Part shown: positions 4,665 to 34,703 of the stretch, piece by piece
How the letters are laid out: each line of letters opens with the position of its first letter
Position numbering within the stretch: position 1 is the stretch's first letter
Origin: a virus
IMG/VR virus record: IMGVR_UViG_3300032315_000218
Location: 1 to 38,668 of that record
Length of the DNA: 38,668 nt
Strand: one strand, 5' to 3'
The notes under the pieces: generated by a model
Database searches by the model: none
The model's input: the letters and a program-made list of their open reading frames with translations, nothing else
What the model was told of the DNA's origin: nothing
Program-made: the position numbers and the translations under genes

Positions 4665-6074
4665 ATGGCAAGTACATTTTCCCCAACCCTACGCTTAGAG
4701 TTAATCGGCGATGGAGACCAGTCCGGTATCTGGGGCCAGACTACCAATAACAACCTTGGCGGCCTATTAGAGCAGGCAATAACAGGTGTTATTACAATTA
4801 GCATGGTAGATGCGAACTACACCATGTCCAACTTTAACGGTGTGGTAGACGAGGCTCGGAACCAAGTTTTAGTCCTAACCGGCGCCCTATCTCAGCAGCG
4901 CAACCTGATTGCCCCCTTAGTTGAAAAGACCTATACCATTCGTAACACGACTACTGGCGGCTTTGGTGTGCAGATTATTGGCTCATCGGGTACTGGCGTG
5001 GTAATCCCAAATGGCACAACAGCTTCTGTTTTTTGTGATGGCACTAACTTTTTTCCATCTACAACAGGATCCCTTGGCAATCAAGTTATCAACGGAAATC
5101 TATCTGTTACTGGAACAACATCTTTAACAGGTGCTTTAACTGCTTCTACCGCTACATTCTCTGGTTCTATTTCTTCTGTAAGCCCAACCTTTACAGGCAC
5201 ACCGACAGCGCCGACAGCTGTTGCCGGAACTAACACAACTCAGATTGCAACCACGGCTTTTGTACAGGGCATAGCGGGTACTTTGGGTACGATGTCTACT
5301 CAGAACGCTAACGCCGTAGCTATTACGGGCGGTTCAATAAACGGTACAACAATTGGAGCGAGTACAGCGGCAAGCATAGCTGGAACAACAGGTAACTTTA
5401 GTGGTAACTTAGCTTCACTAGGTAGCGTATCAGGCGCTACAGGTATCTTTGGTGCGGTATCAGGCACAACTATTACAGCGTCTACTCAGTTTACCGGCCC
5501 TGGTACTGGACTTACTGGTACTGCAGCCTCCTTAACTGTTGGCGCTGCTACTAGTGCTACTAGTGCTACTACGGTAACAACCACAGTCGCAAGCGGCGCA
5601 ACAGGAACAACGCAAGCAGTTGGAACAAATAACACGACTATTGCTACTACAGCTTTTGTCCGGTCAATTATTCCTGCTGGCGTAATATTAATGTGGTCAG
5701 GCTCGATTGCCTCAATTCCAAGTGGATGGGTCTTGTGTGATGGCGGCAGCGGCACTCCCGATTTACGTAATCGGTTTATTGTAGGTGCTGGGTCAACTTA
5801 TGCAGTAAATGCAACTGGCGGTACCGCGGATGCTATTGTTGTTAGCCACACCCATACTGCTACTTCTACTGTTACTGATCCAGGACACTTTCACGCAGAT
5901 GGTTTTATTTTTGGCAGCACTGCTTTTTCTGGCCCAGGTATTAATGCCCCAGGAAATACATCAACTGCTTTTACAGGTATTACTGTTGGAACTACTGTGG
6001 ACGCTACTGGATCATCTGGTACAAACGCCAATCTGCCACCGTACTATGCGCTTGCGTACATTATGAAGACGTAA
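4665..6074 (+). CDS. Tail fibre with phage collar domain
   Basis: The 469-residue product opens with TLRLELIGDGDQSGIWGQTT, a common phage fibre N-terminus. The middle is Thr/Ala/Gly-rich with fibre units such as TFTGTPTAPTAV and TQIATTAFVQ (the latter occurs twice). The C-terminus (from about residue 335) is a tail-collar-type domain: PAGVILMWSG, IPSGWVLCDG, TPDLRNRFIVG, paired His-rich segment SHTHTATS, and NLPPYYALAYIMKT. Collar domains sit at fibre tips, often metal-bound, in receptor-binding proteins. Start chosen at 4665 with AAGGA upstream. It is a second fibre, distinct from the S74 fibre, so the phage appears to carry at least two receptor-binding modules. Confidence 0.9.
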   Translation: MASTFSPTLRLELIGDGDQSGIWGQTTNNNLGGLLEQAITGVITISMVDANYTMSNFNGVVDEARNQVLVLTGALSQQRNLIAPLVEKTYTIRNTTTGGFGVQIIGSSGTGVVIPNGTTASVFCDGTNFFPSTTGSLGNQVINGNLSVTGTTSLTGALTASTATFSGSISSVSPTFTGTPTAPTAVAGTNTTQIATTAFVQGIAGTLGTMSTQNANAVAITGGSINGTTIGASTAASIAGTTGNFSGNLASLGSVSGATGIFGAVSGTTITASTQFTGPGTGLTGTAASLTVGAATSATSATTVTTTVASGATGTTQAVGTNNTTIATTAFVRSIIPAGVILMWSGSIASIPSGWVLCDGGSGTPDLRNRFIVGAGSTYAVNATGGTADAIVVSHTHTATSTVTDPGHFHADGFIFGSTAFSGPGINAPGNTSTAFTGITVGTTVDATGSSGTNANLPPYYALAYIMKT

Positions 6075-7018: not shown

Positions 7019-9223
7019 ATGCCATTACAAAAGGTACAGTTTAGGCCAGGCCTTAACAGAGAAGGAACCGATTACAGTAACGAAGGTGGTTGGTTCGACT
7101 GTAACAAGGTGCGTTTTCGTTCTGGCTACCCTGAGAAGATTGGTGGCTGGATTCGCTTGTCTAATAGCACCTTTTTAGGTATAGCCCGTGCGCTGTGGAA
7201 CTGGGTTACTTTAAACGGCGCTAACTTACTTGGAGTAGGTACTAATCTTAAGTACTATATTGAGCAGGGGGGCGACTATAACGATATTACGCCTATTCGG
7301 GCTACGTTTACTTCTGCTTCTACGCCAACAACAAACAACATTATTAAGACGACTAACGGCTCAAATGTTATTACGATTGACTATGCTAACTACGGCGGCT
7401 TAACGGGTGACTTTGTAACAATCAGTGGCGCTACTGCAGTAGGTGGAATCCCTGCCACGGAGCTAAATGCAGAACATCAGATTACGTATGTAGACCTAGA
7501 TACCTTTACGTTTACCGTAGCCAGCAATGCAACCTCAACTGCCACTGGTGGCGGTACAGCTATTGTTATGGCTTTTCAGGTTAATACGGGGTTAGATGTT
7601 TTTATTACAGGTACAGGTTGGGGCGCAGGCACATGGCCTACTTATGTAAACAATACCTTAACAAACCCATTTACCGCTGCTGGTATTGGCGTCTCCGTCC
7701 TTACGGTGACTCAGGCTGCACATGGCTTAACTACTGGTGATTATGTTTACTTTGAAAGTATTTCTGCGGATCCATGTGGAATTAATAGATTAGTTCTCCA
7801 AAAGGCGTTTCCAGTTACCGTTACTAGCCCAAGCACCTACACAATATCTACTGTTATAGGTGGCAATACCTACCTAACTACCTCGACTGCGGCTTCTGGC
7901 GGTACTGTTGTGGTATCTATTCCTGTGGCTCCTGTGCGGGGTTGGGGCGCTTCAGCTGCTGTGGGTATTGGTCAGCAGTTACGCCTTTGGACAAACGATA
8001 ACTTTGGTGAAGACCTTCTTATTGCCCCTCGTGGCGGTTCTGTTTATTACTGGGATGCAAATACAGGCATTAGTGTACGGGCGCTTTTACTTAATACAGC
8101 CTCAACCAACGCTGGATTTGCTGGGCAGTTTGTACCGAACACAACCAACCAAATTATTGGCTCATCTATTCAGCGGTTTGCTGTTTGTTTTGGTGCCAAT
8201 CCTTATGATCCAATAAACGCTAATACTGTGTTTGACCCTCTTTTAGTTCGCTGGTCTGACCAAGAAAACCCATTTGACTGGGTACCTGCTGCAACAAACC
8301 AGTCTGGAGAGTACCGCTTAAATATCGGCTCGTTCATTATGTGCGCTAAATCTACCCGTCAAGAGATTCTGGTTTGGTCTGATGCGGCTATTTACTCCAT
8401 GCAGTATTTAGGGCCTCCTTATGTTTGGGGCTTCCAGTTATTGCAAGACAATATTACTATCATGTCGCCTAACGCCTCAGTTACAGTAAACAACGTGACT
8501 TACTGGATGGGCACAGATAAGTTCTTCTCGTACACAGGTCGTGTGGAAACCTTGCCTTGCTCACTCTGGCAGTTTGTCTTTGACGATATTAATAAAGATC
8601 AAGCGTTTCAAGTATTTGCTGGGTCAAATGAATCCTACAACGAGGTATGGTGGTTTTATTGCTCACAAGGCTCTAATACAGTCGACAAGTACATTATTTA
8701 CAACTACCTTGAGCGGGTATGGTCGTACGGCACAATGACTAGAACAGCTTGGCTGGACTCAGGTTTACGCCAGTTCCCAATGGCTGCCTATCCAGTAGGT
8801 AATAGGATTTTGTTCCACGAAGCCAACGTAGACGATGTATCAGGGTTAACCCCAGTACCAATTGAGGCGTATATCCAGTCTTCTGACTTTGACATTGGTG
8901 ATGGACATAACTTTGGTTTTGTATGGCGCATCCTGCCAGACATTACGTTTAACGGCTCGAATGTAAACCAGCCCTCAGTTACAATGACTTTGCGCCCACG
9001 GCAGAACTCAGGAACGCCTTACGGCACTGCAGACACCCCTCAAGTTCAAAGTGCGCAGAACTACACCAGCCGCAATACCTACGAGGTTCAAGAATTTGAT
9101 GGTCAGGTTTATACCCGCTTGCGGGCTCGTCAGATGAGCTTTCGGATTGCTTCTACTGGTTTAGGTGTAGCTTGGCAGCTAGGTAGCCCACGGATTGATA
9201 TTAGGCCAGACGGACGCAGATAA
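7019..9223 (+). CDS. Large virion protein (conserved podophage-type structural protein)
   Basis: The 734-residue product begins MPLQKVQFRPGLNREGTDYS followed by EGGWFDCNKVRFRSGYPEKI, a start I recognise from a conserved structural protein of environmental podophages. The rest is rich in beta-strand, Thr and aromatic residues, with WSDQENPFDWVPAATNQSG and QEILVWSDAAIYSMQYLG. The length and strand-rich content fit a tail-nozzle or packaged-DNA-stabilising protein forming part of the portal-proximal tail. Its exact position in the particle is not shown by sequence. It lies between the lysis genes and internal-protein genes and overlaps the next gene by one base (TAATG). Confidence 0.7.
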   Translation: MPLQKVQFRPGLNREGTDYSNEGGWFDCNKVRFRSGYPEKIGGWIRLSNSTFLGIARALWNWVTLNGANLLGVGTNLKYYIEQGGDYNDITPIRATFTSASTPTTNNIIKTTNGSNVITIDYANYGGLTGDFVTISGATAVGGIPATELNAEHQITYVDLDTFTFTVASNATSTATGGGTAIVMAFQVNTGLDVFITGTGWGAGTWPTYVNNTLTNPFTAAGIGVSVLTVTQAAHGLTTGDYVYFESISADPCGINRLVLQKAFPVTVTSPSTYTISTVIGGNTYLTTSTAASGGTVVVSIPVAPVRGWGASAAVGIGQQLRLWTNDNFGEDLLIAPRGGSVYYWDANTGISVRALLLNTASTNAGFAGQFVPNTTNQIIGSSIQRFAVCFGANPYDPINANTVFDPLLVRWSDQENPFDWVPAATNQSGEYRLNIGSFIMCAKSTRQEILVWSDAAIYSMQYLGPPYVWGFQLLQDNITIMSPNASVTVNNVTYWMGTDKFFSYTGRVETLPCSLWQFVFDDINKDQAFQVFAGSNESYNEVWWFYCSQGSNTVDKYIIYNYLERVWSYGTMTRTAWLDSGLRQFPMAAYPVGNRILFHEANVDDVSGLTPVPIEAYIQSSDFDIGDGHNFGFVWRILPDITFNGSNVNQPSVTMTLRPRQNSGTPYGTADTPQVQSAQNYTSRNTYEVQEFDGQVYTRLRARQMSFRIASTGLGVAWQLGSPRIDIRPDGRR

Positions 9224-12326: not shown

Positions 12327-12758
12327 ATGCTACAAAGCGCTCAATCGTTCGAGGCTAAAAAAGTTGCAGCAGAGATTTTATTAAAAGAAGTAGGTTTACA
12401 GCCATGCGGGGACTTAGAAGCCTTGTTTTGGACTGACGAAGAGAATAACATTGAGTGGGTGATAGGTTACACAGCATTTATTGGTAAAACCTGTCAGATG
12501 CATATGGTAAATCTAAAGGGTGGGTATACCCCTAAAGGTTTGTTATTTGGTGCTTTTGATTTCCCGTTTAATTATTGTGGGTTAGAAAAGACCTTTGGAA
12601 TTGTTAATAGTCTTAATGAAAAGGCTATGGAGTACGACCAGAAGTTAGGATTTAAAGAGGCTGTTCGCTTTCCCGGTATGCATGCAGACGGTGGCGATTT
12701 GGTGGTTTTTGAAATGGACAAAGCTGATTGCAGATGGATCAGGGAGCATAGAAAATGA
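12327..12758 (+). CDS. GNAT-fold protein (phage acetyltransferase-like)
   Basis: The 143-residue product ends with NEKAMEYDQKLGFKEAVRFP, then GMHADGGDLVVFEMDKADCRW. The NEKA-x-x-x-x-x-KLGF helix-turn is the C-terminal signature of GNAT acetyltransferases. The acetyl-CoA loop (R/Q-x-x-G-x-G/A) is not obvious, so activity is doubtful. In T7 the small internal-virion-related protein gp13 has a GNAT-like fold and is encoded just before the internal core genes, which is the position here; a similar assembly role is an analogy. SD AGGAG; it overlaps the next gene by four bases (ATGA). Confidence 0.7.
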   Translation: MLQSAQSFEAKKVAAEILLKEVGLQPCGDLEALFWTDEENNIEWVIGYTAFIGKTCQMHMVNLKGGYTPKGLLFGAFDFPFNYCGLEKTFGIVNSLNEKAMEYDQKLGFKEAVRFPGMHADGGDLVVFEMDKADCRWIREHRK

Positions 12759-15604: not shown

Positions 15605-18600
15605 ATGGCTAAAGACATCTTTACGGCAGAAGAGCTGGGGCTTGCTCCAGCACCAAAAACTATATTTACTGCTGAGGAGTTAGGGGTAACTGCGCCCAAA
15701 GAACAAAAAGATATTTTTACTTTTGAAGAATTATTTGGGGTGCCTTCACCTAAAATCTCTTCTCCTGAGTCTTCTGTAACCGTTGAGGGTGCACCTGATA
15801 TAAGAAAAGAAGTAGAAGTTAGCGGAGCTACAAGTAACCCGTTTAAAGGTTTAGGAGCCCGAGCTGTAACACTGCTTGGTTCTGGTATTGAAGGTGTTGC
15901 TCGTGTTGGTGAATCCTTTGGTGACTACCTAGAAGAAAAGATGCCAATATCTGGCCTTTCAAAAGAAGAAATACAAAACAAACGCCAATTAGAACCTTTG
16001 TTTAAGTGGGCAGATTCTTTAAGAGACTATGGTAAAGATATTAATTACCAGCCTAGTCAAAAACTAGGTGACATTGCTGATAATCCAGCAACTATTGTGC
16101 CGTTTATTGCGGAACGTATTGTTACTTCAACCCCCGATATGGCTGCGGCAGTTGTTGCTTTTCCAGCGTATATAGCTACACGAACAAACGAAATACTAAA
16201 CGAACGTCTTAAAAATGATGGCAAAGACATAAAAGATGCAACTGTAAGTGATGTAGCTATTTCCGCAGGGGCAGCAGTTATTGAAGGGACACTTGAGCGC
16301 TTTGCTACTAAAGGCTTATTAAAACCAACTGCAGCTAAAACAGGCACTGGGCGTGTTGGTAAAGAGACTGCAATCCAGTCAGGTACTGAGGCTCTTGAAG
16401 AAGGTGCTAGTTATTTAGGTGGCGCTGCTGGTACTGTAAAAGGTGTTGACTATAAAGAACTTGGGCAAGCTATGCTTGAGGGCGCAATCGTCGGTGGTGG
16501 TCTTGGTGCAACTGTTCAAGGTACTAAAGAAGGGTATGACAAATACCAAGAGCGTGCGCAGGATAATGACTATAAAGAAGCGATGGCAACCATCCTTCAG
16601 GACAAAGGGTTCAGCCTTGCACCAAAACCTGAGCAGGACGAAGTTGTGCAGTCTGTGCTCGAAACTTCTAAAGAGAAACTATCATCTCTTGTAGATGACG
16701 TAAAAGAAACATTAGCTAGCTATCTACCAAGCAAAACGCCTGAAGCCTATGGTGAGCCTGGAGAAGTTAGTATTGAGCAGTTAACCTCACGGTACAAGGG
16801 TCTTGGTTTAACTCAGGAACAAGCACAAGAATTAGCTGTTGCTGACTTTACCGAAGCTGGCTTACCTATAAATATTCCTACTACCCCAATGGAGGCCCCA
16901 AGTGATCGAATTGAACCTATCGCCGGAACAACTGAGCCTGGCATTCCAGCACCTCAAATTCAAACTGAACTACAACCAATTGCCCCCGGAACTCCTGGAA
17001 TTAAACCTGGAGAATTGGGTGGAGCTCTCCCACCTGCTGGACCTGTTGGAAGCGGAGAAGCAGCTCAGCCGAGTGCATTAAAACCTGTAGACAGCTTTTT
17101 TGCGGACGTAGATAAAAAGCGTAATGTTGATTACAAAAGTAAAAATAGGCTTGTTTCAATGCCAATTGACCAGTTTTTGACGTTAGCTGAGCGATTAGAT
17201 ACACCTACCGCAGATAAGCAAGAGCGTGTTTCAAAAAAAATAAAAGCTGATGAACAGTTTAGCGAAGCACCATATTTGTATTTTGGTACTTGGTCTAGTG
17301 ATATGCCTGAAGGGCAAGCAAAAGTTACTGGGCATGAAGGTAGGCATAGAGCTATGCAACTCAAAAAAATGGGATATACCCATATGCCAGTGGAACTAAG
17401 AGGTGATATTCGTTGGAGTGAGCAAAACGACCCTACAAAAAACGATTACGCTGAAGCGTACCCTACACAGATTATTGGTGAAAATGGCGATGTAATGTCG
17501 TTTCCAGTACCAAGGGAAATGTCGACCGCACCGTACACAGACGCTCAACAAGCTGTAACCCCAGAGGCTGCACCTACGCTAGAAGCAGAACCTAAGGTAG
17601 TTACTAAAGGTAAAGCAGGTCGCCCTAAAGCCGTGTTAACTCCTGAAGAAACAGCTGCTAAGAAACAAGCTAGGGCTACACAAGTTAAAGAGTGGAAAGC
17701 AACTAATAAAGAGTTGTTAGCTGCCAGAGATGTTCTTGACCTACCAGCGCCAACTAGAGATAACTTTGCTAGTCAGGATGCGTACCTTGATTCCAGCATG
17801 CAATTTAGGGCTAACCGCAACAAGGCTTTAGATTTATTAAACGGTTTGGCTACAGGTGCTCGTCGTGACACCGCTTTGGGTAAAACTGCCAAGGAGGGTT
17901 TAGCAAACCCATCTATTACGCCACAAGAACTTGCATCGGTAAAAGAACGTGAGGCATTACGTAAAGGTACAGCCCGTTCGGAAGAGTTGCTTGAGTCCAC
18001 CAATGGCGAAGACAATCAAGAATTTACTAAGTTTACTAACGCTAGCCAAGCAATTAGCTGGGTAGCCAAGAACGGTAATGCCTTTGAGAAGTTTTTAGCT
18101 AAGCGCCTGGAGCCATTTCTACGTAACGTTAAGCTAGTAGTCGTAACTGACCCTAACACCGATATGCCCGCATCTCGTAGACAAGACTTTGTAGGTGCTA
18201 ACGGCATGTACTTTGAGTCTAAGAAAGAACGGGTAATTTACCTCGATGCTCAAGGTGGAATTAATAACACAGTATTCTTACACGAAGCCCTACACGGTGC
18301 AACCCTTGCACGTATTAACCGATACTTAGATGACATTGCTGAAGGCCGTGAGCCTAACCCTAAACTAGCTGAAGCTGTAGAAGAACTCAATGCCATTATG
18401 AAACGGGCTGGTCGGTTCTACGAAGCACTTAAAGCAGCTAACCTTACTGATGCCCGCACGGATGAGTTTGCACGAGTTAATGCCTTTGGCGACTTAAAAG
18501 AATTTGTGGCTTACGGTATGAGCTCCCCTGCTCTCCAAGAGTTTTTAATGCAGCTTCCAGGTATGTACGCAGGTGCTACTACTCAAGCACCACAAGGCTT

Positions 18601-21600
18601 ATTTACACGTTTTGTTCAATCCATCCGCAAAATATTTAACATGGGTCCAGAGCATGATTCGTCCATGCAAGACCTCATTATTGTTACTGATAAGCTACTA
18701 CGTGCACCTGATGCACAGGTAGTAACCGCAGACTCCGCCGCTGCTAAGAAGGCTAAGAAAGCCGCAAAAAAGGTAGATAAGGATTTACAGTCTATTGAGG
18801 CTTCTAATGATGCATTCAAGGTTAACAATGCTTTAGGTAGCATGATTACAGAACGGGACTTTGGTAACTTTAAAGACCTACTTGATGCACGCTTTGCGGA
18901 TATGGGTAACGGCTTTATATCCAAGACGCTGTACACCATGCAGACCGTCGACATACTGCGCTGGAAGGGTGATGAGATTCCTGCTTTACTAGAGGTAGAT
19001 AAGCTGCAACAACAGATGTCAGCAATGCGTACCAATATGTTAGCCGCCTCTGCCGATAAAGCAGACCAGTTAGGCGCCTTTGTTCGTAAAAATGGTATGG
19101 AAACCCTTAGCGACGCTATGCACTTAGCCCGTATCAAGGAAGTAAGTCCAACCAAATACACAGATCGTGCCGATGCACTTAAAAACGACACTGACGTTAA
19201 GTTCTATGAAGCTAAAATTGCAGACCCCAATACAGCCCCTGCTAGCGTAGTAGGGTACAAAGGACAATTGACGCAGCGCAAAAAAGATATTGATGCTGTA
19301 TTTGCCGCTTGGGAAAAGCTAGGTAAGCAAAAGGGTGGGCATGACATTTATAAGATGGTTCGTCAGTTCTACATCGACAACTACAACCTGACCCGTAACC
19401 TATTAGATGAGCAGATCAATGAGCTACAAATTGACCCTGCTGCTAAAGCTAACTTAATGAAGTCTATCCGCCTAATGCATGAACAGGCGGCAGTTAGAGA
19501 CGACGCTACAGGTAAGAAAACCAAAGCCCTACCCGAAGAATACTTTCCATTAATGCGTGAGGGTAAATACTGGTTGCGCATCACAGGCGGCCCCAACGGG
19601 CGTGAGTTTTGGCTGTTTGAAAATGGCGTTGACCGTAACGTGTTTTTGCAAAAACGAGCCAAGAAACTAGGCTTAAGCGTTGATGATCCTAAAATTAGTG
19701 CAGGTGATGACGTTACTACCCTACGCAAAGACTACGCTGCTGGCAGTGAGTTACTTCAAGAGATGTTTGGCACGATTGATAGCTTGGCGGTAGACCCTAA
19801 GTTTGACCCCTCTAAGTTCCCCGATGCTGCAACCGCAAATCAAGCGTTTAAAGAAGAGCTTAAAGACCAGCTGTATCAGACCTATTTAATGACCATGCCG
19901 GAGCGTAGCTACCGTAAGCAGTTCTTGCACGCCGAGAAGGTTACTGGTTTTAGCGCAGATGTGTTCCGCAACTTTAAAACATCCGCCACTAAGATTGCAA
20001 ATCAAGCAGCAAAGCTAAAGTATTCAACCAAAATTTTGAATCAAGTAGATGCAGCTAGAAGTACCCTAGACGGCATGCCAGCTTTAGAGCGGGCTAAGAT
20101 GGAATTGTTTGTAAACGAGATTAGTAAGCGGGCGCAAGAAGAAATTAACCCACCTGAACAGGGTGCGTTTGTAACTGGGGTTAACCAGTTTGCGTTTATT
20201 ATGTTACTAACCAGCGCTGCTTCTGCCGCTACGCAGATGGCTTCCATTCCTATTATGGTTATGCCTAACTTACAGCAAAAGTACGGGTATAAAGACTCTT
20301 CCGTTAAGCTGGCTAAGTACATGAACTTCTTAAAGTCGATTGGGGTTACTAAGTTAGACCCTAACAACGGCGATGTAACGTATACCGCTCCTTCTATTGG
20401 CTCTTCTAGTTGGGTTAAGGCTAGCCCCATATTGCAAAGAGCATTCCAAGCAGGGCTTGAGCGAGAAGTAATGACTGGCACAAATACAGCCGTGCTTACC
20501 AACAAGAATAGAACGCCTGATAACTCTTACTCTAGCTTGCCAGGAGTAGCAGCAAGAACCTCATTTAACGCAATGAGTGCTATGTTTAACGGTGCAGAGC
20601 GTCTCACCCGTGAGATGACTTTTATGATGACTTTTGAGCTTGAGTACGCTAAGAGTAAAAACTTTGACGAGGCAGTGCAAAAAGCAACTGACACCACGCA
20701 CGAAACTTTAGGTAGGTATGACAGCTTCAATCGCCCACGCATTCTAAGAAACGCATTTGGTAAGACCGTTGGTCAGTTTAAGATGTACTCCGTTTATATG
20801 ACTTCGTTCTTCATGCGCAATTTCTACAACTCTATTCGTATTAGCATACCTTTAGCAGAAAGAGCAGCGGCTATGCAGCGTATGGCGGGGGTTTTAGTTA
20901 TGGGCGGTATGTTCCACGGCTTAGTAGGTATGCCTTTGTACGGAGTAATTACCGATACAGTTGATGCTATGTTGGACCAGTTTGGTGACGAAGAAGAGAA
21001 AAAGCAACGACGTGCTAAGAACCCACTGACTTCTGACAACTCTAATCTACGGTTCCGTTACGAGTTTTTACCTGAGAATTTTGGGCACATTGAAATAACT
21101 GGGTTAGATGGGCGTAAACATAGACTAAGTGAGTTACTTGAAAAAGGGCCTATTTCTGCGCTTACTGACATTAACATTGGTTCCCGTACCTCGTTTGATG
21201 GCATGTGGTTTAGAGACCCTAACCCCGGTAAAAATTGGACCGAAACAGCAATTAACATTGCAACCTCTAACTTGGGTCCGGGTGTGTCCACAGGTTTAAA
21301 TTTAGCCCGTGGTATTGATGATCTTAGCAAGGGTGAAATATTACGCGGGTTAGAAAAACTTGTGCCCGCACTTTTTAGAACTCCTATTACTGCATACCGT
21401 ATTGGTACTGAAGGCGCCGAAACTACCAAGGGTGCAGACATGTTATCTCGTGATGAGCTTAACAACCGCAACATAATTGCCCAGGCTATTGGTTTTCCTC
21501 CTACTAGATTAGCTCGTATTCAAGAGCAAAGTTTTGAGTCACAAAAAGAAGTAAGGAAAGCCCAAGACCGCCGAGCAAAAATATTGGATGGTTTGCATCG

Positions 21601-21835
21601 TGTTGCGTTTGACCCTGAGGGTAACAAGGCAGACTTGAAAGAAGTTTTTGAGGATATTAAAAACTACAACCGCAGATACCCAATTGATAAGTACTTAATT
21701 GACATCGACACAATCGAGCGTTCCTTAGAAACCTACGCCAACAAGCGTGGCATAACCTATCGTGGTCAGGTAATTGAGGAAAAACTTGCCCCATACTTAG
21801 GCCCACTTTACAGAGCTACGGTACCCCTAAAGTAA
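15605..21835 (+). CDS. Giant ejection polyprotein: ParB-like, metalloprotease and LPD38-like regions
   Basis: The product has 2076 residues. Residues 4-50 hold three copies of [DT]IFTxEEL. Residues 570-640 resemble a ParB/nuclease-like fold (GHEGRHRAM at 576-584). Residues 885-970 form a zinc-metalloprotease: HEALH at 893-897 with a possible third ligand Glu966 in LKEFVAYGM. Further on are long charged helices. From about 1510 to 1800 hydrophobic helices alternate with conserved motifs (AFIMLLTSAASAATQM, GKTVGQFKMYSVYMTSFFMR) like the LPD38 region of large polyvalent phage proteins. This fits a head-internal protein ejected with the DNA that crosses or digests the envelope, comparable in size to but not recognisably homologous with T7 gp16. 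It is the last late gene and abuts a terminator. Confidence 0.75.
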   Translation: MAKDIFTAEELGLAPAPKTIFTAEELGVTAPKEQKDIFTFEELFGVPSPKISSPESSVTVEGAPDIRKEVEVSGATSNPFKGLGARAVTLLGSGIEGVARVGESFGDYLEEKMPISGLSKEEIQNKRQLEPLFKWADSLRDYGKDINYQPSQKLGDIADNPATIVPFIAERIVTSTPDMAAAVVAFPAYIATRTNEILNERLKNDGKDIKDATVSDVAISAGAAVIEGTLERFATKGLLKPTAAKTGTGRVGKETAIQSGTEALEEGASYLGGAAGTVKGVDYKELGQAMLEGAIVGGGLGATVQGTKEGYDKYQERAQDNDYKEAMATILQDKGFSLAPKPEQDEVVQSVLETSKEKLSSLVDDVKETLASYLPSKTPEAYGEPGEVSIEQLTSRYKGLGLTQEQAQELAVADFTEAGLPINIPTTPMEAPSDRIEPIAGTTEPGIPAPQIQTELQPIAPGTPGIKPGELGGALPPAGPVGSGEAAQPSALKPVDSFFADVDKKRNVDYKSKNRLVSMPIDQFLTLAERLDTPTADKQERVSKKIKADEQFSEAPYLYFGTWSSDMPEGQAKVTGHEGRHRAMQLKKMGYTHMPVELRGDIRWSEQNDPTKNDYAEAYPTQIIGENGDVMSFPVPREMSTAPYTDAQQAVTPEAAPTLEAEPKVVTKGKAGRPKAVLTPEETAAKKQARATQVKEWKATNKELLAARDVLDLPAPTRDNFASQDAYLDSSMQFRANRNKALDLLNGLATGARRDTALGKTAKEGLANPSITPQELASVKEREALRKGTARSEELLESTNGEDNQEFTKFTNASQAISWVAKNGNAFEKFLAKRLEPFLRNVKLVVVTDPNTDMPASRRQDFVGANGMYFESKKERVIYLDAQGGINNTVFLHEALHGATLARINRYLDDIAEGREPNPKLAEAVEELNAIMKRAGRFYEALKAANLTDARTDEFARVNAFGDLKEFVAYGMSSPALQEFLMQLPGMYAGATTQAPQGLFTRFVQSIRKIFNMGPEHDSSMQDLIIVTDKLLRAPDAQVVTADSAAAKKAKKAAKKVDKDLQSIEASNDAFKVNNALGSMITERDFGNFKDLLDARFADMGNGFISKTLYTMQTVDILRWKGDEIPALLEVDKLQQQMSAMRTNMLAASADKADQLGAFVRKNGMETLSDAMHLARIKEVSPTKYTDRADALKNDTDVKFYEAKIADPNTAPASVVGYKGQLTQRKKDIDAVFAAWEKLGKQKGGHDIYKMVRQFYIDNYNLTRNLLDEQINELQIDPAAKANLMKSIRLMHEQAAVRDDATGKKTKALPEEYFPLMREGKYWLRITGGPNGREFWLFENGVDRNVFLQKRAKKLGLSVDDPKISAGDDVTTLRKDYAAGSELLQEMFGTIDSLAVDPKFDPSKFPDAATANQAFKEELKDQLYQTYLMTMPERSYRKQFLHAEKVTGFSADVFRNFKTSATKIANQAAKLKYSTKILNQVDAARSTLDGMPALERAKMELFVNEISKRAQEEINPPEQGAFVTGVNQFAFIMLLTSAASAATQMASIPIMVMPNLQQKYGYKDSSVKLAKYMNFLKSIGVTKLDPNNGDVTYTAPSIGSSSWVKASPILQRAFQAGLEREVMTGTNTAVLTNKNRTPDNSYSSLPGVAARTSFNAMSAMFNGAERLTREMTFMMTFELEYAKSKNFDEAVQKATDTTHETLGRYDSFNRPRILRNAFGKTVGQFKMYSVYMTSFFMRNFYNSIRISIPLAERAAAMQRMAGVLVMGGMFHGLVGMPLYGVITDTVDAMLDQFGDEEEKKQRRAKNPLTSDNSNLRFRYEFLPENFGHIEITGLDGRKHRLSELLEKGPISALTDINIGSRTSFDGMWFRDPNPGKNWTETAINIATSNLGPGVSTGLNLARGIDDLSKGEILRGLEKLVPALFRTPITAYRIGTEGAETTKGADMLSRDELNNRNIIAQAIGFPPTRLARIQEQSFESQKEVRKAQDRRAKILDGLHRVAFDPEGNKADLKEVFEDIKNYNRRYPIDKYLIDIDTIERSLETYANKRGITYRGQVIEEKLAPYLGPLYRATVPLK

Positions 21836-29860: not shown

Positions 29861-30460
29861 CTAATCTATAAATTGTTTTAAATCGTCTGATCTTGTTGGG
29901 TGTCTTAATTTACGTAATGCGTGGGCTTCAATGTGTCGAATAGCCTCTTTAGTAACTTTAAACATACTGCTAATTTCTTCTAGTGTGTGCGCTTGAACAC
30001 CATCAATTCCAAATCGCAAACGTAGTATTTTTGCTTCTCTAGGAGTAAGGCTATCTAGTTTGTCAGCCACCACTCTAGTCATATCCTCTTCTACCATTTC
30101 CTGTTCGGGATAATCGAGCCCAATAAGACTTCGTGCGCTAGATTGTAAGGTTATTTGCAGTGCCTCCTTACTCATTACTCTTTCAGTACGATTAGAATCC
30201 AGCCTTAAAGTTAACTGCTCGTCTGTCCATAATTCGCTAGGGCATACACCAAGAACCTCCATCAGCTCCTTAGCGGGTTTAATAAACTCACCTTTAGTAC
30301 CAATTGGAGGTTCCATAAGATTAACTAAGCTGTATATCCCAGTAACACCTATACCAGTAGCCTTAGCAAAATTATTAAGGTTGGTGTACCCAAAATCTTT
30401 AATAGCTTTAAGAATGAGATTGTTTCTAACAGTTACCTTGACGTTATATTCATCCATCAT
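29861..30460 (-). CDS. XRE-type HTH fused to sigma70 region 4
   Basis: In the 199-residue product, residues 10-78 form an XRE/Cro-like helical domain (FGYTNLNNFAKATGIGVTGI ... ELMEVLGVCPSELW). Residues 130-199 closely match the RpoD C-terminus: DSLTPREAKILRLRFGID (region 4.1) and TLEEISSMFKVTKEAIRHIE then ALRKLRHPTRS (region 4.2). Region 4 contacts the RNA polymerase beta-flap and the -35 element. Regions 1-3 are absent, so it cannot melt a -10 as a full sigma would. Probably a transcription modulator that redirects or competes with host sigma70. Start ATG 30460 follows the preceding stop by one base. Confidence 0.8.
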   Translation of the reverse strand: MMDEYNVKVTVRNNLILKAIKDFGYTNLNNFAKATGIGVTGIYSLVNLMEPPIGTKGEFIKPAKELMEVLGVCPSELWTDEQLTLRLDSNRTERVMSKEALQITLQSSARSLIGLDYPEQEMVEEDMTRVVADKLDSLTPREAKILRLRFGIDGVQAHTLEEISSMFKVTKEAIRHIEAHALRKLRHPTRSDDLKQFID

Positions 30461-30461
30461 A

Positions 30462-31202
30462 TTAATCTCTCGTTAATTGACCACTAAAGTTATACGTTCC
30501 GCTATGGGTTAAATTCGCCCAAGGTGCAGCATAGACTTTAAAGCCAGCCTGCCGTGCAATCTTGCAGAAATGGTAGTCCTCTGAAAGTAATCGGTTGGAT
30601 ACTTCGTCAATGCTAGTTGCAAAGAACTCGTGGATTATTTTCTTGACTGGGCTTTTGTCCACAATCAGAATCATATCGTTGGTATATGTTGGCACTTTGT
30701 CTTTGAGTACCTCAAATACATTACGCTTAATTAACATAAACCCCGTGCCGCCGTTATCAATCTCCATTGGCTCATTAACATCACCCGTAGCTTGTGCCAC
30801 ATCACCTACTAGGTTTACTACAAAAGAACCTGTATAGCTAGGCAGGTCTTGATACTCAACCCCAGACTTAACAGCTTCTGCTACCGTCTTCCAGTTAATC
30901 TCTTTCTTTGGGTACAAGCCACAAATAATGTCTTTGTCTGCATTAACCATGCTAACAATGTCTGCTGGGTTAAATGTAATATCAGCATCAATAAACATCA
31001 GGTGTGTAGCATCTGTACCTAAAAAGTCATAGGCTAGTGAGTTTCTAGCACGGGTAATCAAAGACTCATTCATCATGTGCGCATAGTACAGTTGCATCTC
31101 ATGACGCATAAACTCTTGTACCGAATTAAGCAGCCCCACGGTGTAACCGCCAACGCACAGCCCACCGTACATTGGTGTAGCTACAAATATTTTATGAGTC
31201 AT
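30462..31202 (-). CDS. GT-A-type glycosyltransferase
   Basis: The 246-residue product starts MTHKIFVATPMYGG, a nucleotide-sugar-binding first strand. A DxD motif is at Asp72-Ala-Asp74 (HLMFIDADITF), and RARNSLAYDFL and EDYHFCKIARQAGFKVYAAP fit the acceptor-side region of such enzymes. It transfers a sugar from a nucleotide donor to an unknown acceptor. I start at 31202 (ATGA overlap, GGAGAG upstream) rather than 31214. Part of a three-gene modification cassette with the next two genes upstream. Confidence 0.78.
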   Translation of the reverse strand: MTHKIFVATPMYGGLCVGGYTVGLLNSVQEFMRHEMQLYYAHMMNESLITRARNSLAYDFLGTDATHLMFIDADITFNPADIVSMVNADKDIICGLYPKKEINWKTVAEAVKSGVEYQDLPSYTGSFVVNLVGDVAQATGDVNEPMEIDNGGTGFMLIKRNVFEVLKDKVPTYTNDMILIVDKSPVKKIIHEFFATSIDEVSNRLLSEDYHFCKIARQAGFKVYAAPWANLTHSGTYNFSGQLTRD

Positions 31203-31936
31203 TTTGCTCTCCACGGGAAATTGCCGTTATAAAGTTGTTGCATATATTTGTTACCTTCTTTAAAAAATATTTCCGCATCGGGTCGAACTCGGTAGTTCAC
31301 TGTGTACAAGCCTGTACATCCGTAGCTGTAAAAGTCTTTAGCCGTAGATACTGCCATCCTATATAAAAAACGATCAGCCCAGTAATAATCTGTCTGTAGG
31401 GTAGAGTTGATCTTCATTAAAAACTCAGTCTTAAAACAGTAGCAGTTCATGTCCACCAAGTTAATGTTCTTCCAGCTTGCAAAGATTCCTAGGCTATCGC
31501 AGTCGTCATTGAATAAATAGTTGCCTTCCTGATCTACACACTTGCGTAGGCTATAACACCACTCATGCTCTCGGTTTGGCATCTTAAACATTTGCAACAT
31601 GGTTTCTACATGGTAAGGTTCAAACCAATTATCCTCATCCAAAAACAATACATGCTCGGCATTGATTAGGCTAGATATACCCGCATACACCCGATTGCCA
31701 AAGAACTTAACACCATCCTTCTTACTCCAATGATTGCTTGGTTTACCCGTGTTCTCAGGCAACAAGATTATTTTCTTATTGACGTAATTCCCAGTAGCCA
31801 GTATGTCGGCTACTTTTTGTGCATGTTCTGCACCGTCAATCACAATCCAATGTTCGCATGGTTGGTTATTGGTAGATTCCATCGCCTTAGCTAGGAATGG
31901 TAAGCCCGTTGTAGGGGTTATGACTACTGCGCTCAT
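31199..31936 (-). CDS. Family 2-like glycosyltransferase
   Basis: The 245-residue product begins MSAVVITPTTGLPFLAKAME, followed by EHWIVIDG and a DxD at Asp100-Glu-Asp102 (HVLFLDEDNWF), the GT-A fold pattern. The C-terminal half with DYYWADRFLYRM and NYRVRPDAEIFF is an acceptor domain candidate. Substrate unknown: phage DNA base, virion protein or host surface sugar. Overlaps neighbours on both sides by four bases (ATGA). Confidence 0.78.
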   Translation of the reverse strand: MSAVVITPTTGLPFLAKAMESTNNQPCEHWIVIDGAEHAQKVADILATGNYVNKKIILLPENTGKPSNHWSKKDGVKFFGNRVYAGISSLINAEHVLFLDEDNWFEPYHVETMLQMFKMPNREHEWCYSLRKCVDQEGNYLFNDDCDSLGIFASWKNINLVDMNCYCFKTEFLMKINSTLQTDYYWADRFLYRMAVSTAKDFYSYGCTGLYTVNYRVRPDAEIFFKEGNKYMQQLYNGNFPWRAK

Positions 31937-32502
31937 TTTTTCTTCACCGCCAGTTGGTAGTTTCTAAACAGAATCTCGTACTGACCAGCATACACACCTA
32001 AGAACGCTTCGATACCTAGTTTGGGATTAAGCACTAACTCGGGGTACTTGTTCCACTCATAGTCATCAAACAACATAACACCGCCTGACTTGAGCATCCC
32101 CCATGCCATACACGCATCGCTTAAAGTGTCATAGGCTGTGTGACTTCCGTCAATGTAGATAAAGTCAAACGGGTATCTATTCTTAATCAGTTCAGCCAGT
32201 GCATCGTATGACCGCTTTTTATACAACGATACCCTTTGTTCTAACTTCATAGCTTCCGATGTATTGCGAGAGAATCGTCTTTCTACTTCTTTAAAGTCAA
32301 CCCCATCGTGCTCTTGACCACCATTGAATGTATCTACACAAACCACAGTGCCGTTATCCGCTAACCCGTTTTCTAGTAACCAGCAAGTAGAGCGCCCCTC
32401 AAACACACCAATCTCAAGAAATAACTTCTTCTCGGGTATAGCTGACATGCACGCTTCAAAGTTAGGTATGTTGCTACTGAACCAATCTTCTGTAAAATTC
32501 AT
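31933..32502 (-). CDS. Class I SAM-dependent methyltransferase
   Basis: The 189-residue product has a SAM-binding motif I KKLFLEIGVFEGRST (residues 25-38), acidic Asp57 after the second strand, then FDFIYIDGSHTAYDTLSD and GGVMLFDDYEW, the layout of the Methyltransf_24 family often seen in sugar/O-antigen clusters. No DNA-methylase catalytic motif (DPPY or PC) is seen, so sugar or small-molecule methylation is more likely than base methylation. Starts directly after the polymerase stop (TAAATG) and overlaps the following glycosyltransferase. Confidence 0.82.
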   Translation of the reverse strand: MNFTEDWFSSNIPNFEACMSAIPEKKLFLEIGVFEGRSTCWLLENGLADNGTVVCVDTFNGGQEHDGVDFKEVERRFSRNTSEAMKLEQRVSLYKKRSYDALAELIKNRYPFDFIYIDGSHTAYDTLSDACMAWGMLKSGGVMLFDDYEWNKYPELVLNPKLGIEAFLGVYAGQYEILFRNYQLAVKKK

Positions 32503-34320
32503 TTAACACTCTCCATAAGAACTACCAACACCTGACTCACAACTTAGTGGCAAATCTAATGCCCACTTAGGTCGCATCTTCATGCACAACTCGACATACT
32601 CTTGAGCTGTCTGAGCTTCTGAATTAGGTACTACGCAAGCAATAGCATCATGCACAGTCATTACAACTTTGTATTTCTTAGCTACTTTTAGCATTTGCTC
32701 ACCAATAATAATTCGGGCTAAAGCCTGACACACATTCTCAATAACTTTACCGCCGTATATTCTGTTAGGTATAGTCGCCTTACCCTTTCTGGTGTCGTAT
32801 ACATACTCGGTCTTACCTTCTTCATTGATAATCTTGCGTAGGTTTGGATACTTCATGTACAAGCCGTTTGGTAAGCGGATACCTTTTGTACCCTCGACTG
32901 TCAGCACACCAGCCCGACCTAATGACATAGTCTGATTGTTAATGATGGCATCTAAAGCTAATCCTGCTTTTCTCCAAAGAGACGGTATCCAGTCATAAGT
33001 TTCCCGATATACTTGGATAATACGATTGGCTTCCCCATCCTCAATTTCCACATTGAAAGTCTTGAGTTGGATTTGGAATTTCTTACTGCCCATGCCGTAG
33101 CCACATCCCAATATCGTTGTCTTACCAACGAACCTTTCATCCTTGCTAATTTCTGCTTCCGCCTTGTTATATATAGACGAAGCCATGATCTTGTATACAT
33201 CCTCACCCCTTTCAAATGCATCAACTAAATCATTTTGCTCGGCCAGCCACGCTAATGTTCTTGCTTCTATTTGGCTAGAGTCAGAATCAATAATCTTGTA
33301 CCCAATAGGGGCACGGATTGCACTTTTTAAAGGGCTTTGTCTTGGTAAGTTTTGTAGGTTTACTTTGTCGTCACCGCCCCACCGCCCTGTATGAGCCGCA
33401 TAGTAGCGTAGTGGTATAGGTAATAAACCCCGATCCGAAATCCCAATAAAGCGTTGGGTTCTTGTTTCTTCTAGAGTAGACTTAACACCAAGACGAGCTG
33501 CCGCTAGAAGTTGCACATTTTCATTCTCGTGTTCTAGCAATGCTTTAAAGCCTTCGTCTGTTTTAGCAAATGCCCAGGTTTTCTTTCCTGTTGCTGGACT
33601 TATCTTAGTAGGCGGTTCTACACCCCGTTCAATTAATAACTCCGAAAACATATCGTTACTCATCAAATCTTCTCGAGCAAACTGTTGCAAAAATACTTCT
33701 TTTTTCTCTTGCACTTCTTTTAGGTGTACTTCCAACAAAGGCTTATCCAACACCAAGCTAGGCTCAGTAAACATACGAATGGTCAGATCAATCAACCTAA
33801 ACTCAACTAAAGGGTAATTTTCACCTAGTATTTGTAGTAACTGCATAGTAAGCGCAGTATCGTTCTTACAATACTCGCCATAGTTTGCTAACTCCTCAGG
33901 CGTAAAATCAATCCTGTGCTTGCCCAAGGCTTGCAATACTTCTGTGCCTTTAACACCAATAGCATGATATTCAGCCAATGCTTTTAAGCTACCGCCAACT
34001 TCAGTTCCGTATATTGCTCTTGCCATTGATAGAGTATCGGCAATAGCCTTAGGTCTTATATTAAATACAAAACTAAGGATAGCCATATCAAACATGGCAT
34101 TGTGGGCGCACAATAAATTATCTTGAAAATTAAATTGCTCGAGCCACTTTTTTGTAGATTCTTTAGTACCGCTAAACCATTGTGGTTCACCGTCTTTCTC
34201 TTGCACGGCAACACCAATTACTTCAAATTCCGCACCACGGATGTATTCTTCCGTAGTCAGCTTAGTTAGTGAATAAGTCTGAGAGTAGTAGGTCTCAAAG
34301 TCGATACAATATATTTTCAT
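32503..34320 (-). CDS. Family A DNA polymerase with 3'-5' exonuclease
   Basis: The 605-residue product has exonuclease motifs DFETYYS (Asp7, Glu9), CAHNAMFDM (Asn74, Asp78) and YCKND (Asp154). Polymerase motif A is DSSQIEA (Asp347), motif B is the O-helix RFVGKTTILGCGYG (Leu404 where E. coli Pol I has Phe762), and motif C is VHDAIA (Asp558). No 5' nuclease domain. It is the replicative polymerase. Motif C has Ala559 instead of the usual Glu. Leu at the 762 site is a known common variant in environmental phages. Overlaps the upstream gene by four bases (ATGA). Confidence 0.95.
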   Translation of the reverse strand: MKIYCIDFETYYSQTYSLTKLTTEEYIRGAEFEVIGVAVQEKDGEPQWFSGTKESTKKWLEQFNFQDNLLCAHNAMFDMAILSFVFNIRPKAIADTLSMARAIYGTEVGGSLKALAEYHAIGVKGTEVLQALGKHRIDFTPEELANYGEYCKNDTALTMQLLQILGENYPLVEFRLIDLTIRMFTEPSLVLDKPLLEVHLKEVQEKKEVFLQQFAREDLMSNDMFSELLIERGVEPPTKISPATGKKTWAFAKTDEGFKALLEHENENVQLLAAARLGVKSTLEETRTQRFIGISDRGLLPIPLRYYAAHTGRWGGDDKVNLQNLPRQSPLKSAIRAPIGYKIIDSDSSQIEARTLAWLAEQNDLVDAFERGEDVYKIMASSIYNKAEAEISKDERFVGKTTILGCGYGMGSKKFQIQLKTFNVEIEDGEANRIIQVYRETYDWIPSLWRKAGLALDAIINNQTMSLGRAGVLTVEGTKGIRLPNGLYMKYPNLRKIINEEGKTEYVYDTRKGKATIPNRIYGGKVIENVCQALARIIIGEQMLKVAKKYKVVMTVHDAIACVVPNSEAQTAQEYVELCMKMRPKWALDLPLSCESGVGSSYGEC

Positions 34321-34703
34321 GGGTAGCGTAGTCTTCCAGTAATTGTTCCTGAGACTGCGCCAGTATTTAAAAGCGTTATGGTGCTAGTCCCCCAATTTTT
34401 GCTAGCGTCGTTTGGTTCCCCAAAAGAACTTGATAGTTCCCCCGCATCCATTAGCAGAGTATTCATAACCTTTTTAGTAAACAGCTCGCCTTGCAGTTGT
34501 TGCATACTACCCCATAGGGCTTTTATTTCCTCGTCGCTTAGAAAAGGTAGCTGGTCTTGGTAGTCCTTGCCCCCCTCGGCTCGCATTTGAACGGCAAGTA
34601 AAATATCTTGCCATTTTTTAGGGTAGTACCCATGCACAGTCGGTATAAATTCGTCAGGGTTACTTCTCATACGCTCTAATAAAATCTGAACTCCTTGGTT
34701 CAT
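34317..34703 (-). CDS. Hypothetical phage protein upstream of polymerase
   Basis: The 128-residue product begins MNQGVQILLERMRSNPDEFI, with HGYYPKKWQDILLAV and a flexible Ser/Thr/Asn-rich C-terminus (GTSTITLLNTG). Overlaps both neighbours by four bases, so it is translated with the VRR-NUC nuclease and the polymerase. The helical first half may bind a replication protein; no motif proves this. Confidence 0.7.
   Translation of the reverse strand: MNQGVQILLERMRSNPDEFIPTVHGYYPKKWQDILLAVQMRAEGGKDYQDQLPFLSDEEIKALWGSMQQLQGELFTKKVMNTLLMDAGELSSSFGEPNDASKNWGTSTITLLNTGAVSGTITGRLRYP

Follow-up and report, generated by a model that had tools for sequence, protein, structure and literature searches.

A mobile phage cassette of one methyltransferase and two glycosyltransferase genes that probably builds a short methylated sugar chain on a target other than DNA

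The IMG/VR virus record IMGVR_UViG_3300032315_000218 (linear, analysed as the entire record of 38,668 bases and referred to below as the window) carries, directly behind a family A DNA polymerase gene, a cassette of three genes encoding a methyltransferase (MT) and two glycosyltransferases (GT2 and GT1). We propose that the likely product of these enzymes is a short sugar chain with a methyl group, attached to a target that is not DNA, with a protein of the phage particle as the leading, still tentative candidate for the acceptor. This reading is favoured because the solved structure that best matches the predicted fold of GT1 is protein A197 of the archaeal virus STIV, because of the genes that accompany GT1 and the type of MT, because no PF00303 protein was found in the 28 large records searched, because no membrane segment was found in the three proteins, and because the GT2 subtype covaries with a virion protein. 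DNA is an unlikely target.

The cassette encodes an O-methyltransferase and two GT-A glycosyltransferases

The three genes lie behind the polymerase on one strand and are joined by four-base overlaps, as a preliminary description of this DNA had claimed; both overlaps read ATGA and their coordinates matched (Table 1). The second one depends on the start chosen for GT1, since the GTG at 31214 given in the open reading frame list would lengthen it to 16 bp. The polymerase gene (end at 32503) and MT (start at 32502) abut with zero overlap. MT, GT2 and GT1 were considered real genes because their putative catalytic residues are invariant across relatives.

MT matched PF13578 (9.7e-22, 78.3 bits against a cut-off of 26.3) and PF01596 (8.4e-9, 35.5 bits against a cut-off of 22). 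A profile built from 22 relatives retrieved 14 distinct O-methyltransferase sequences from the PDB at E <=0.01, the best being 3dul (2.3e-6), and residues D118, H121, D146 and D147 were invariant in the 22 sequences. The S-adenosylmethionine (SAM)-binding domain above the cut-off and the conserved acidic residues identify MT as a class I O-methyltransferase, with putative metal dependence.

GT2 narrowly passed the curated cut-off of PF00535 (2.8e-5, 24.5 bits against 23.3) and was modelled as a GT-A fold (predicted local distance difference test score, pLDDT, 85.0), which together place it in glycosyltransferase family 2. Residues D100 and D102 were invariant in 33 sequences. The best VIA match of the model was a Leptospira glycosyltransferase (6p61, Z 20.9), followed by the fucosyltransferase WrtF (Z 19.6).

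GT1 matched the Anp1 family (PF03452, 3.1e-8, 33.8 bits against a cut-off of 28.8) and phrog_1574, a family of unknown function (2e-46). D72/D74, E208/D209 and H233/G235 were invariant in 42 sequences, the DxD motif being D72-A-D74. The best solved fold for the GT1 model (pLDDT 85.2) was STIV A197 (Z 18.4, root mean square deviation 2.6 Å, 166 aligned residues, 22% identity), followed by LH3 (Z 17.6), Mimivirus R699 (15.9), Mnn9 (15.9) and COLGALT1 (15.6); general GT-A enzymes appeared from about Z 14. Enzymes named as protein glycosyltransferases were among the top fold matches. Foldseek ranked Mnn9 first (3.3e-7), and A197 was the sole PDB match of the GT1 profile at E <=0.1 (0.0037). The modelled GT-A fold with its DxD motif predicts that GT1 transfers a sugar.

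The cassette moves independently of the replication module

The nearest polymerase relative (L027, 87% amino acid identity) lies on a 4-kb contig, the DNA of which is 83% identical to the window over all of the compared stretch up to position 32504, the polymerase stop, and shows no similarity beyond it. Next to the polymerase in L027 comes a sigma-like gene, the product of which is related to the protein encoded at 29861-30460 in the window (51% in the matched part). By this comparison, the polymerase stop codon bounds the cassette on its upstream side. Within contig reach, the other close polymerase relatives (76-82%) carried GT1 alone or none of the three genes, with the exception of L024, a contig that stops inside an MT. 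In L035, a GT1-like piece was detected only when the family was used as the query. No GT2 turned up in the closest polymerase relatives within the reach of their contigs, some of which are short. A cassette-type gene separates the polymerase from the exonuclease or helicase that comes next at 11 of the 79 loci with this polymerase, a count that leaves out loci whose cassette lies beyond the exonuclease.

Locus L009, which has the same gene order, combined a polymerase, helicase and primase of 63%, 66% and 49% identity with a GT2 of 90%, a GT1 of 86% and an MT of 53%; its cassette block is 80% identical in DNA across 1,742 bp. GT2 at 78-86% identity also occurred without the window's polymerase, helicase and primase, in the whole records G002 (L008) and G025 (L117) and in 16.5 kb of L004. 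Judged from these alignments, MT, GT2 and GT1 form a discrete movable cassette among related phages. The replication-linked role that had been read from the place behind the polymerase is not supported for this lineage: the cassette is a movable insert, it also stands beside another replication module, and the contigs of the closest polymerase relatives showed no GT2 within their length. A function tied to this particular module was therefore rejected.

It would be wrong to regard these records as unrelated phages, as they and the window have virion genes in common and it is the replication module that differs; in G002 and G025, both the cassette and virion genes correspond to those of the window, whereas its polymerase, helicase and primase are not found. 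Records G001, G002, G008, G010, G025 and others displayed one virion module and two replication modules, which suggests that the replication block is swapped among phages of one virion family. Among 101 contigs carrying GT1, 75 had the polymerase type of module and 22 the other, typed by genes that we tentatively took for ERF and exonuclease; four were untyped.

GT1 is the likely core of a nested set of genes

GT1 relatives were found in at least 599 viral contig stretches, in 93 of 50,697 phage records and in at least 265 confirmed stretches of bacterial and archaeal assemblies. To describe the GT1 neighbourhood (-4.5/+1.5 kb), 113 loci with a GT1 match were reduced to 100 contigs by dropping eight second contig copies, three loci from the phage collection, the locus of the window itself and one that lacked a usable GT1 call; partner families were named from Pfam searches with one representative each. 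GT1 was accompanied by GT2 in 54 contigs, the polymerase in 46, an FkbM-type family (c11) in 26, MT in 24, a radical SAM family in 23, a GT10 fucosyltransferase in 19 and a second FkbM-type family (c24) in 18. Neither GT2 nor MT was near GT1 in 41 of the 100. Conversely, when GT2 was used as the seed (486 relatives confirmed, the best 80 of these kept, giving 79 loci), GT1 lay within 1.3 kb downstream in 73 loci and was absent in four; two contigs ended too soon.

GT1 therefore occurs alone, with GT2, or with GT2 and MT, and from this nested pattern it looks like the core of the cassette. Since GT2 is nearly always found with GT1 and GT1 is often found without GT2, we infer that GT1 acts first and that GT2 and MT elaborate its product. 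The GT10, FkbM-type and radical SAM neighbours suit glycan assembly. The sugars, the order of the steps, the acceptor and the benefit are all part of what we infer: GT1 would attach a first sugar to a cytoplasmic acceptor, using a host nucleotide sugar; GT2 would add a second sugar and so extend the chain; MT would methylate a hydroxyl of the outer sugar as an O-methyl cap. The acceptor would most likely be a phage-particle protein, so that virions would carry a short O-methylated glycan that would alter recognition, adsorption or stability.

At loci L019-L023, a 255-aa gene (cluster c62) lies upstream of MT; by a motif, its product is a putative polyphosphate kinase 2. The bacterial GT1 homologues, surveyed as 33 proteins around three loci, had mixed neighbours (sulfotransferase, Bac_transf, TPR and housekeeping genes, from the 25 of 59 families listed) with no clear role. 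One homologue (L227, 52% identity) comes from Mycobacterium fragae (737-kb contig), a location that stands out among the bacterial matches. Remote homologues in cyanophage ACG-2014f and pelagiphage HTVC023P adjoin tail-collar, glycosyltransferase, epimerase or 2-oxoglutarate (2OG) oxygenase genes.

Hydroxylase-coupled, collagen-like glycosylation was considered and set aside for the window, which has no PF13759 match and no Gly-X-Y run of >=6 units, although candidates were present in relatives. The closest cassette (L009) has a fourth gene (4822-5298) with a 4-bp overlap with GT1 and an HxD...H...R pattern. Its product matched no Pfam or PHROG family, a PDB search gave no convincing match, and its putative hydroxylase label is a reading of the motif. 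The family of this gene comprises 22 loci, mostly the same gene region without GT1; GT1 was a neighbour in four of the 22, several of which begin just upstream. PF13759 oxygenases stand beside GT1 in L077 and L123, and the close cassette of G002 is directly followed by a split PF13759 match (34237-34479). PF13759 exceeded the cut-off in three of 36 records, the window not being one of them.

The GT2 subtype follows a virion protein

The virion structural protein encoded at 7019-9220 occurs in two forms, one matched end to end by the window's protein and one, called interrupted here, in which residues ~125-308 are matched weakly or not at all. A GT2 match was found in 16 of 43 records searched. 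The three records with a close GT2 (78-88%) all had the end-to-end form. The 12 with a distant GT2 (44-49%) comprised nine with the interrupted form, one (G015) matched nearly end to end and two without the gene. G040, whose GT2 is remote (34%) and whose structural protein has the end-to-end form, did not enter the test. GT2 subtype and protein form were associated (4/0 against 1/9, Fisher p 0.005, with the window itself counted and relatedness ignored). Polymerase identity failed to separate the GT2 groups, being 59% in G001, G008 and G014 alike, and the GT2 subtype followed the form of the 7019-9220 protein across both replication types, more than it followed the polymerase. The GT2 subtype thus tracks the virion module even though the cassette is in the early block. 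This pattern agrees with a virion acceptor. It also agrees with an acceptor on the host surface, provided that virion type follows the host, and it fits DNA less well.

Within the virion module, an acyl-CoA N-acyltransferase-like gene (12327-12758, phrog_4470, 2.6e-19) was present in three of 10 genomes compared, which are the three with a close GT2 and MT (G001, G002 and G025).

Several observations weigh against a virion acceptor, beginning with the caveats attached to the test above. The covariation could equally come from common hosts, and six records of more than 40 kb (G013, G029, G030, G031, G032 and G037) have the end-to-end form and no GT2. The 7019-9220 protein is filed under head and packaging, so any link to receptor binding is hypothetical, and the virion acceptor itself is a candidate class of proteins. 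Likeness of a modelled fold is insufficient proof of a protein acceptor for GT1. Genome position points elsewhere: 98 of the 101 contigs have a replication or recombination gene no more than 5 kb from GT1, and none of the 101 has a structural gene at that distance, searched with structural queries from this virion family. Further, in all five T4-like phages examined (DLP6, phiM12, Cr30, vB_OspM_OC and RHph_I1_18, the last counted as T4-like from a reading of its gene content) the GT1 homologue is found upstream of the sliding clamp, at a distance of 0 to 4 genes; these homologues (L212, L213, L214, L216 and L218) are annotated as hypothetical in four cases and as a putative glycosyltransferase in one. 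Finally, many top fold matches of GT2 are enzymes of surface polysaccharides.

Alternative targets: host surface, DNA and host components

This last point leads to the foremost alternative, in which the cassette remodels host surface glycans early in infection, acting on lipopolysaccharide (LPS) or capsule precursors at the cytoplasmic face and so blocking superinfection by competing phages. We consider this possible, if less probable than a virion acceptor. Besides WrtF, the top folds of GT2 include TarP, TarS, RmlT, K4CP and SpsA, all of them surface-polysaccharide enzymes. The position in an early block fits superinfection exclusion, the variable GT10, FkbM-type and radical SAM partners are consistent with this role, and so is the covariation with the virion module, if it reflects common hosts. 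Authors working on pelagiphages have read phage glycosyltransferases as O-chain modifiers (PMC7029224). However, a hydropathy analysis, which is a crude test, found no membrane segment in MT, GT2 or GT1 (maximal 19-residue mean 1.0-1.2), nor did the cassette contain a recognisable membrane gene. The membrane-spanning components of O-antigen conversion (gtr) cassettes are thus missing from the three proteins by the same measure. Host machinery would also need to finish and export the glycan, and the nearest folds of GT1 indicate protein acceptors.

In a second alternative, the cassette glycosylates phage DNA against nucleases, on a base modified by an unrecognised enzyme. We find this unlikely. 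PF00303, the family of thymidylate synthases and base hydroxymethylases, was found in none of 28 large records (the window and 27 others; at least 21 of the 28 carry GT1, and some may be incomplete), whereas the control search was positive in 9 of 14 genomes. The preliminary description had reported that no base hydroxymethylase or thymidylate-type enzyme is visible, and this was borne out beyond the window. The Tet_JBP dioxygenase was likewise found in 0 of 28 records, but no control genome gave a match either. The C5-methylase family PF00145 occurred in three of the 28, the window not among them. In G001, the 60-kb record that has the same three genes, we scanned 52 of 62 predicted proteins of >=90 aa, leaving out eight replication or cassette genes, an HNH gene and one long fragment; 12 Pfam families were found, none of them a base-modification enzyme. 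MT contains no DNA-methylase motif IV ([DNS]PP[YFW]) or C5-type PC, having neither PP nor PC. Its best PHROG family is labelled 'DNA methyltransferase' (3.2e-14), a label that is the sole pointer to DNA methylation in MT. Taken with the protein glycosyltransferases among the folds of GT1, the results on PF00303, G001 and the motifs of MT support the earlier lean towards a surface or protein target.

PF00303 proteins were present in three of 10 named phage records with GT1 (phiM12, Cr30 and RHph_I1_18), and all three carry the synthase-type Asn. In this family, Asn marks thymidylate synthase and Asp hydroxymethylase. DLP6, phage OC and HTVC023P gave no match to PF00303. The reading of DNA as target stays alive at low probability because of the clamp-upstream position of GT1 homologues, because DLP6 is tabulated with restriction-resistant DNA (PMC8228603) and because HTVC023P-type pelagiphages, which include a phage with a remote homologue of GT1, are reported to have DNA hypermodification genes (PMC9599517). 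The proximity of GT1 to replication and recombination genes in the contigs described above is also in its favour. The DLP6 paper tabulates a divergent Td gene, and its own section on the digest gives no clear outcome (PMC5349666, section 13).

The window also encodes, at 15605-21835 and adjoining the virion genes, a 2,076-aa protein of which residues 1307-2058 match a DarB-like antirestriction PHROG (5.4e-51). This is possibly an injected antirestriction protein and may be a separate route to DNA protection, a point against glycosylated DNA.

A broader version, to which we give a small chance, would place GT1 (phrog_1574) at the centre of a glycosylation system that has gone unrecognised and is linked to replication or recombination in several different phage groups. 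The system would act on DNA or on a replisome protein without a PF00303-hydroxymethylated base. Such a system would explain the clamp-upstream position and the reported restriction resistance of DLP6 although that phage has no PF00303 match. A host protein or RNA (such as an RNA polymerase subunit or a tRNA), altered to redirect the cell, is an improbable target: the genes are placed early and the MT profile weakly matched a tRNA 5-hydroxyuridine methyltransferase (4.3e-4), but stronger matches are other O-methyltransferases, and, as a regulatory mark, a sugar chain built in several steps and capped by a methyl group would be unusual.

Comparison with known glycosylation systems

STIV A197 (PDB 2c0n) resembles GT1 as a virus-encoded GT-A enzyme and as its best match by profile and by VIA fold. 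It differs in belonging to an archaeal virus, in the low identity of the aligned part and in that its own acceptor is also unproven; we know of no partner glycosyltransferase or methyltransferase of A197. A197 is described as essential and as possibly glycosylating the STIV capsid protein, which is glycosylated (PMC10551542). Compared by description only, A064R of chlorovirus PBCV-1 likewise combines two glycosyltransferases with a methyltransferase, which caps the outer sugar of the virion (capsid) glycan (PMC7019647), but it belongs to an algal virus and unites three domains in a single protein. Capsid glycans are reported for mycobacteriophages Che8 and Rita, and in a relative the phage glycosyltransferases lie away from the structural genes, as in the cassette (PMC11256854); the likeness is again one of description, and these phages have different hosts and carry the genes near the 3' genome end.

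The collagen-type glycosyltransferases LH3, COLGALT1 and R699 are similar to GT1 in fold (Z 15.6-17.6) and unlike it in identity (10-14%), and the window lacks the Gly-X-Y run and hydroxylase mentioned above. The T4 alpha- and beta-glucosyltransferases and base-J type systems also have glycosyltransferase genes near phage replication genes. The T4 enzymes are GT-B glycosyltransferases, and the PF00303 partner of a T4-type system was absent from the 28 records.

Genomic context of the cassette

The 38,668-base record is probably a fragment of a larger genome; relatives reach 67 kb, and the 60 kb of G001 is the largest record seen with all three genes. It is plausible that the cassette shares an early transcript with the polymerase. 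A promoter-like site (11/12 match) lies at 35030-35003, and such sites numbered 23 in the region, fewer than in shuffled sequences (mean 30.7).

The gene after the cassette begins 1 bp past GT1. Its product has a C-terminal, RpoD-like sigma-70 region 4 (NCBIfam RpoD 7.6e-30, under the cut-off of that model), and its N-terminal part reads as a helix-turn-helix; the remainder of a sigma factor is missing. A promoter-switching role is possible.

Table 1 Features of the cassette and its surroundings in the window
Feature	Position	Strand	Basis
MT, class I SAM-dependent O-methyltransferase, Methyltransf_24/Methyltransf_3 type, 189 aa	31933..32502	-	PF13578, PF01596
GT2, GT2-like GT-A glycosyltransferase, 245 aa	31199..31936	-	PF00535, fold model
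GT1, GT-A glycosyltransferase, phrog_1574 (unknown function), 246 aa	30462..31202	-	PF03452, phrog_1574, fold model
MT/GT2 overlap, 4 bp, ATGA	31933..31936	-	
GT2/GT1 overlap, 4 bp, ATGA, given the GT1 ATG start at 31202	31199..31202	-	
Family A DNA polymerase, directly upstream of the cassette	32503..34320	-	PF00476 1.5e-32
Sigma-70 region 4 protein, next gene after the cassette	29861..30460	-	PF04545 2.3e-15
Virion structural protein, phrog_3287 (head and packaging), form varies with GT2 subtype	7019..9220	+	

Implications

Glycosylation by phage glycosyltransferases and methyltransferases is already known, and the cassette described here is a widespread variant built on a core family of unknown function; no description of it was found in the listed titles and abstract starts of open-licence papers. 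The nested occurrence of GT1, GT1 with GT2, and all three genes together yields a stepwise hypothesis, testable in cultured phages with remote GT1 homologues such as phiM12 or Cr30, whose GT1 is 36-38% identical. If DNA were the target, the cassette would represent a new modification chemistry, and if the host surface were, a widespread barrier to superinfection. If, as we tentatively favour, the virion is glycosylated, sugar-coated phage particles would be common.

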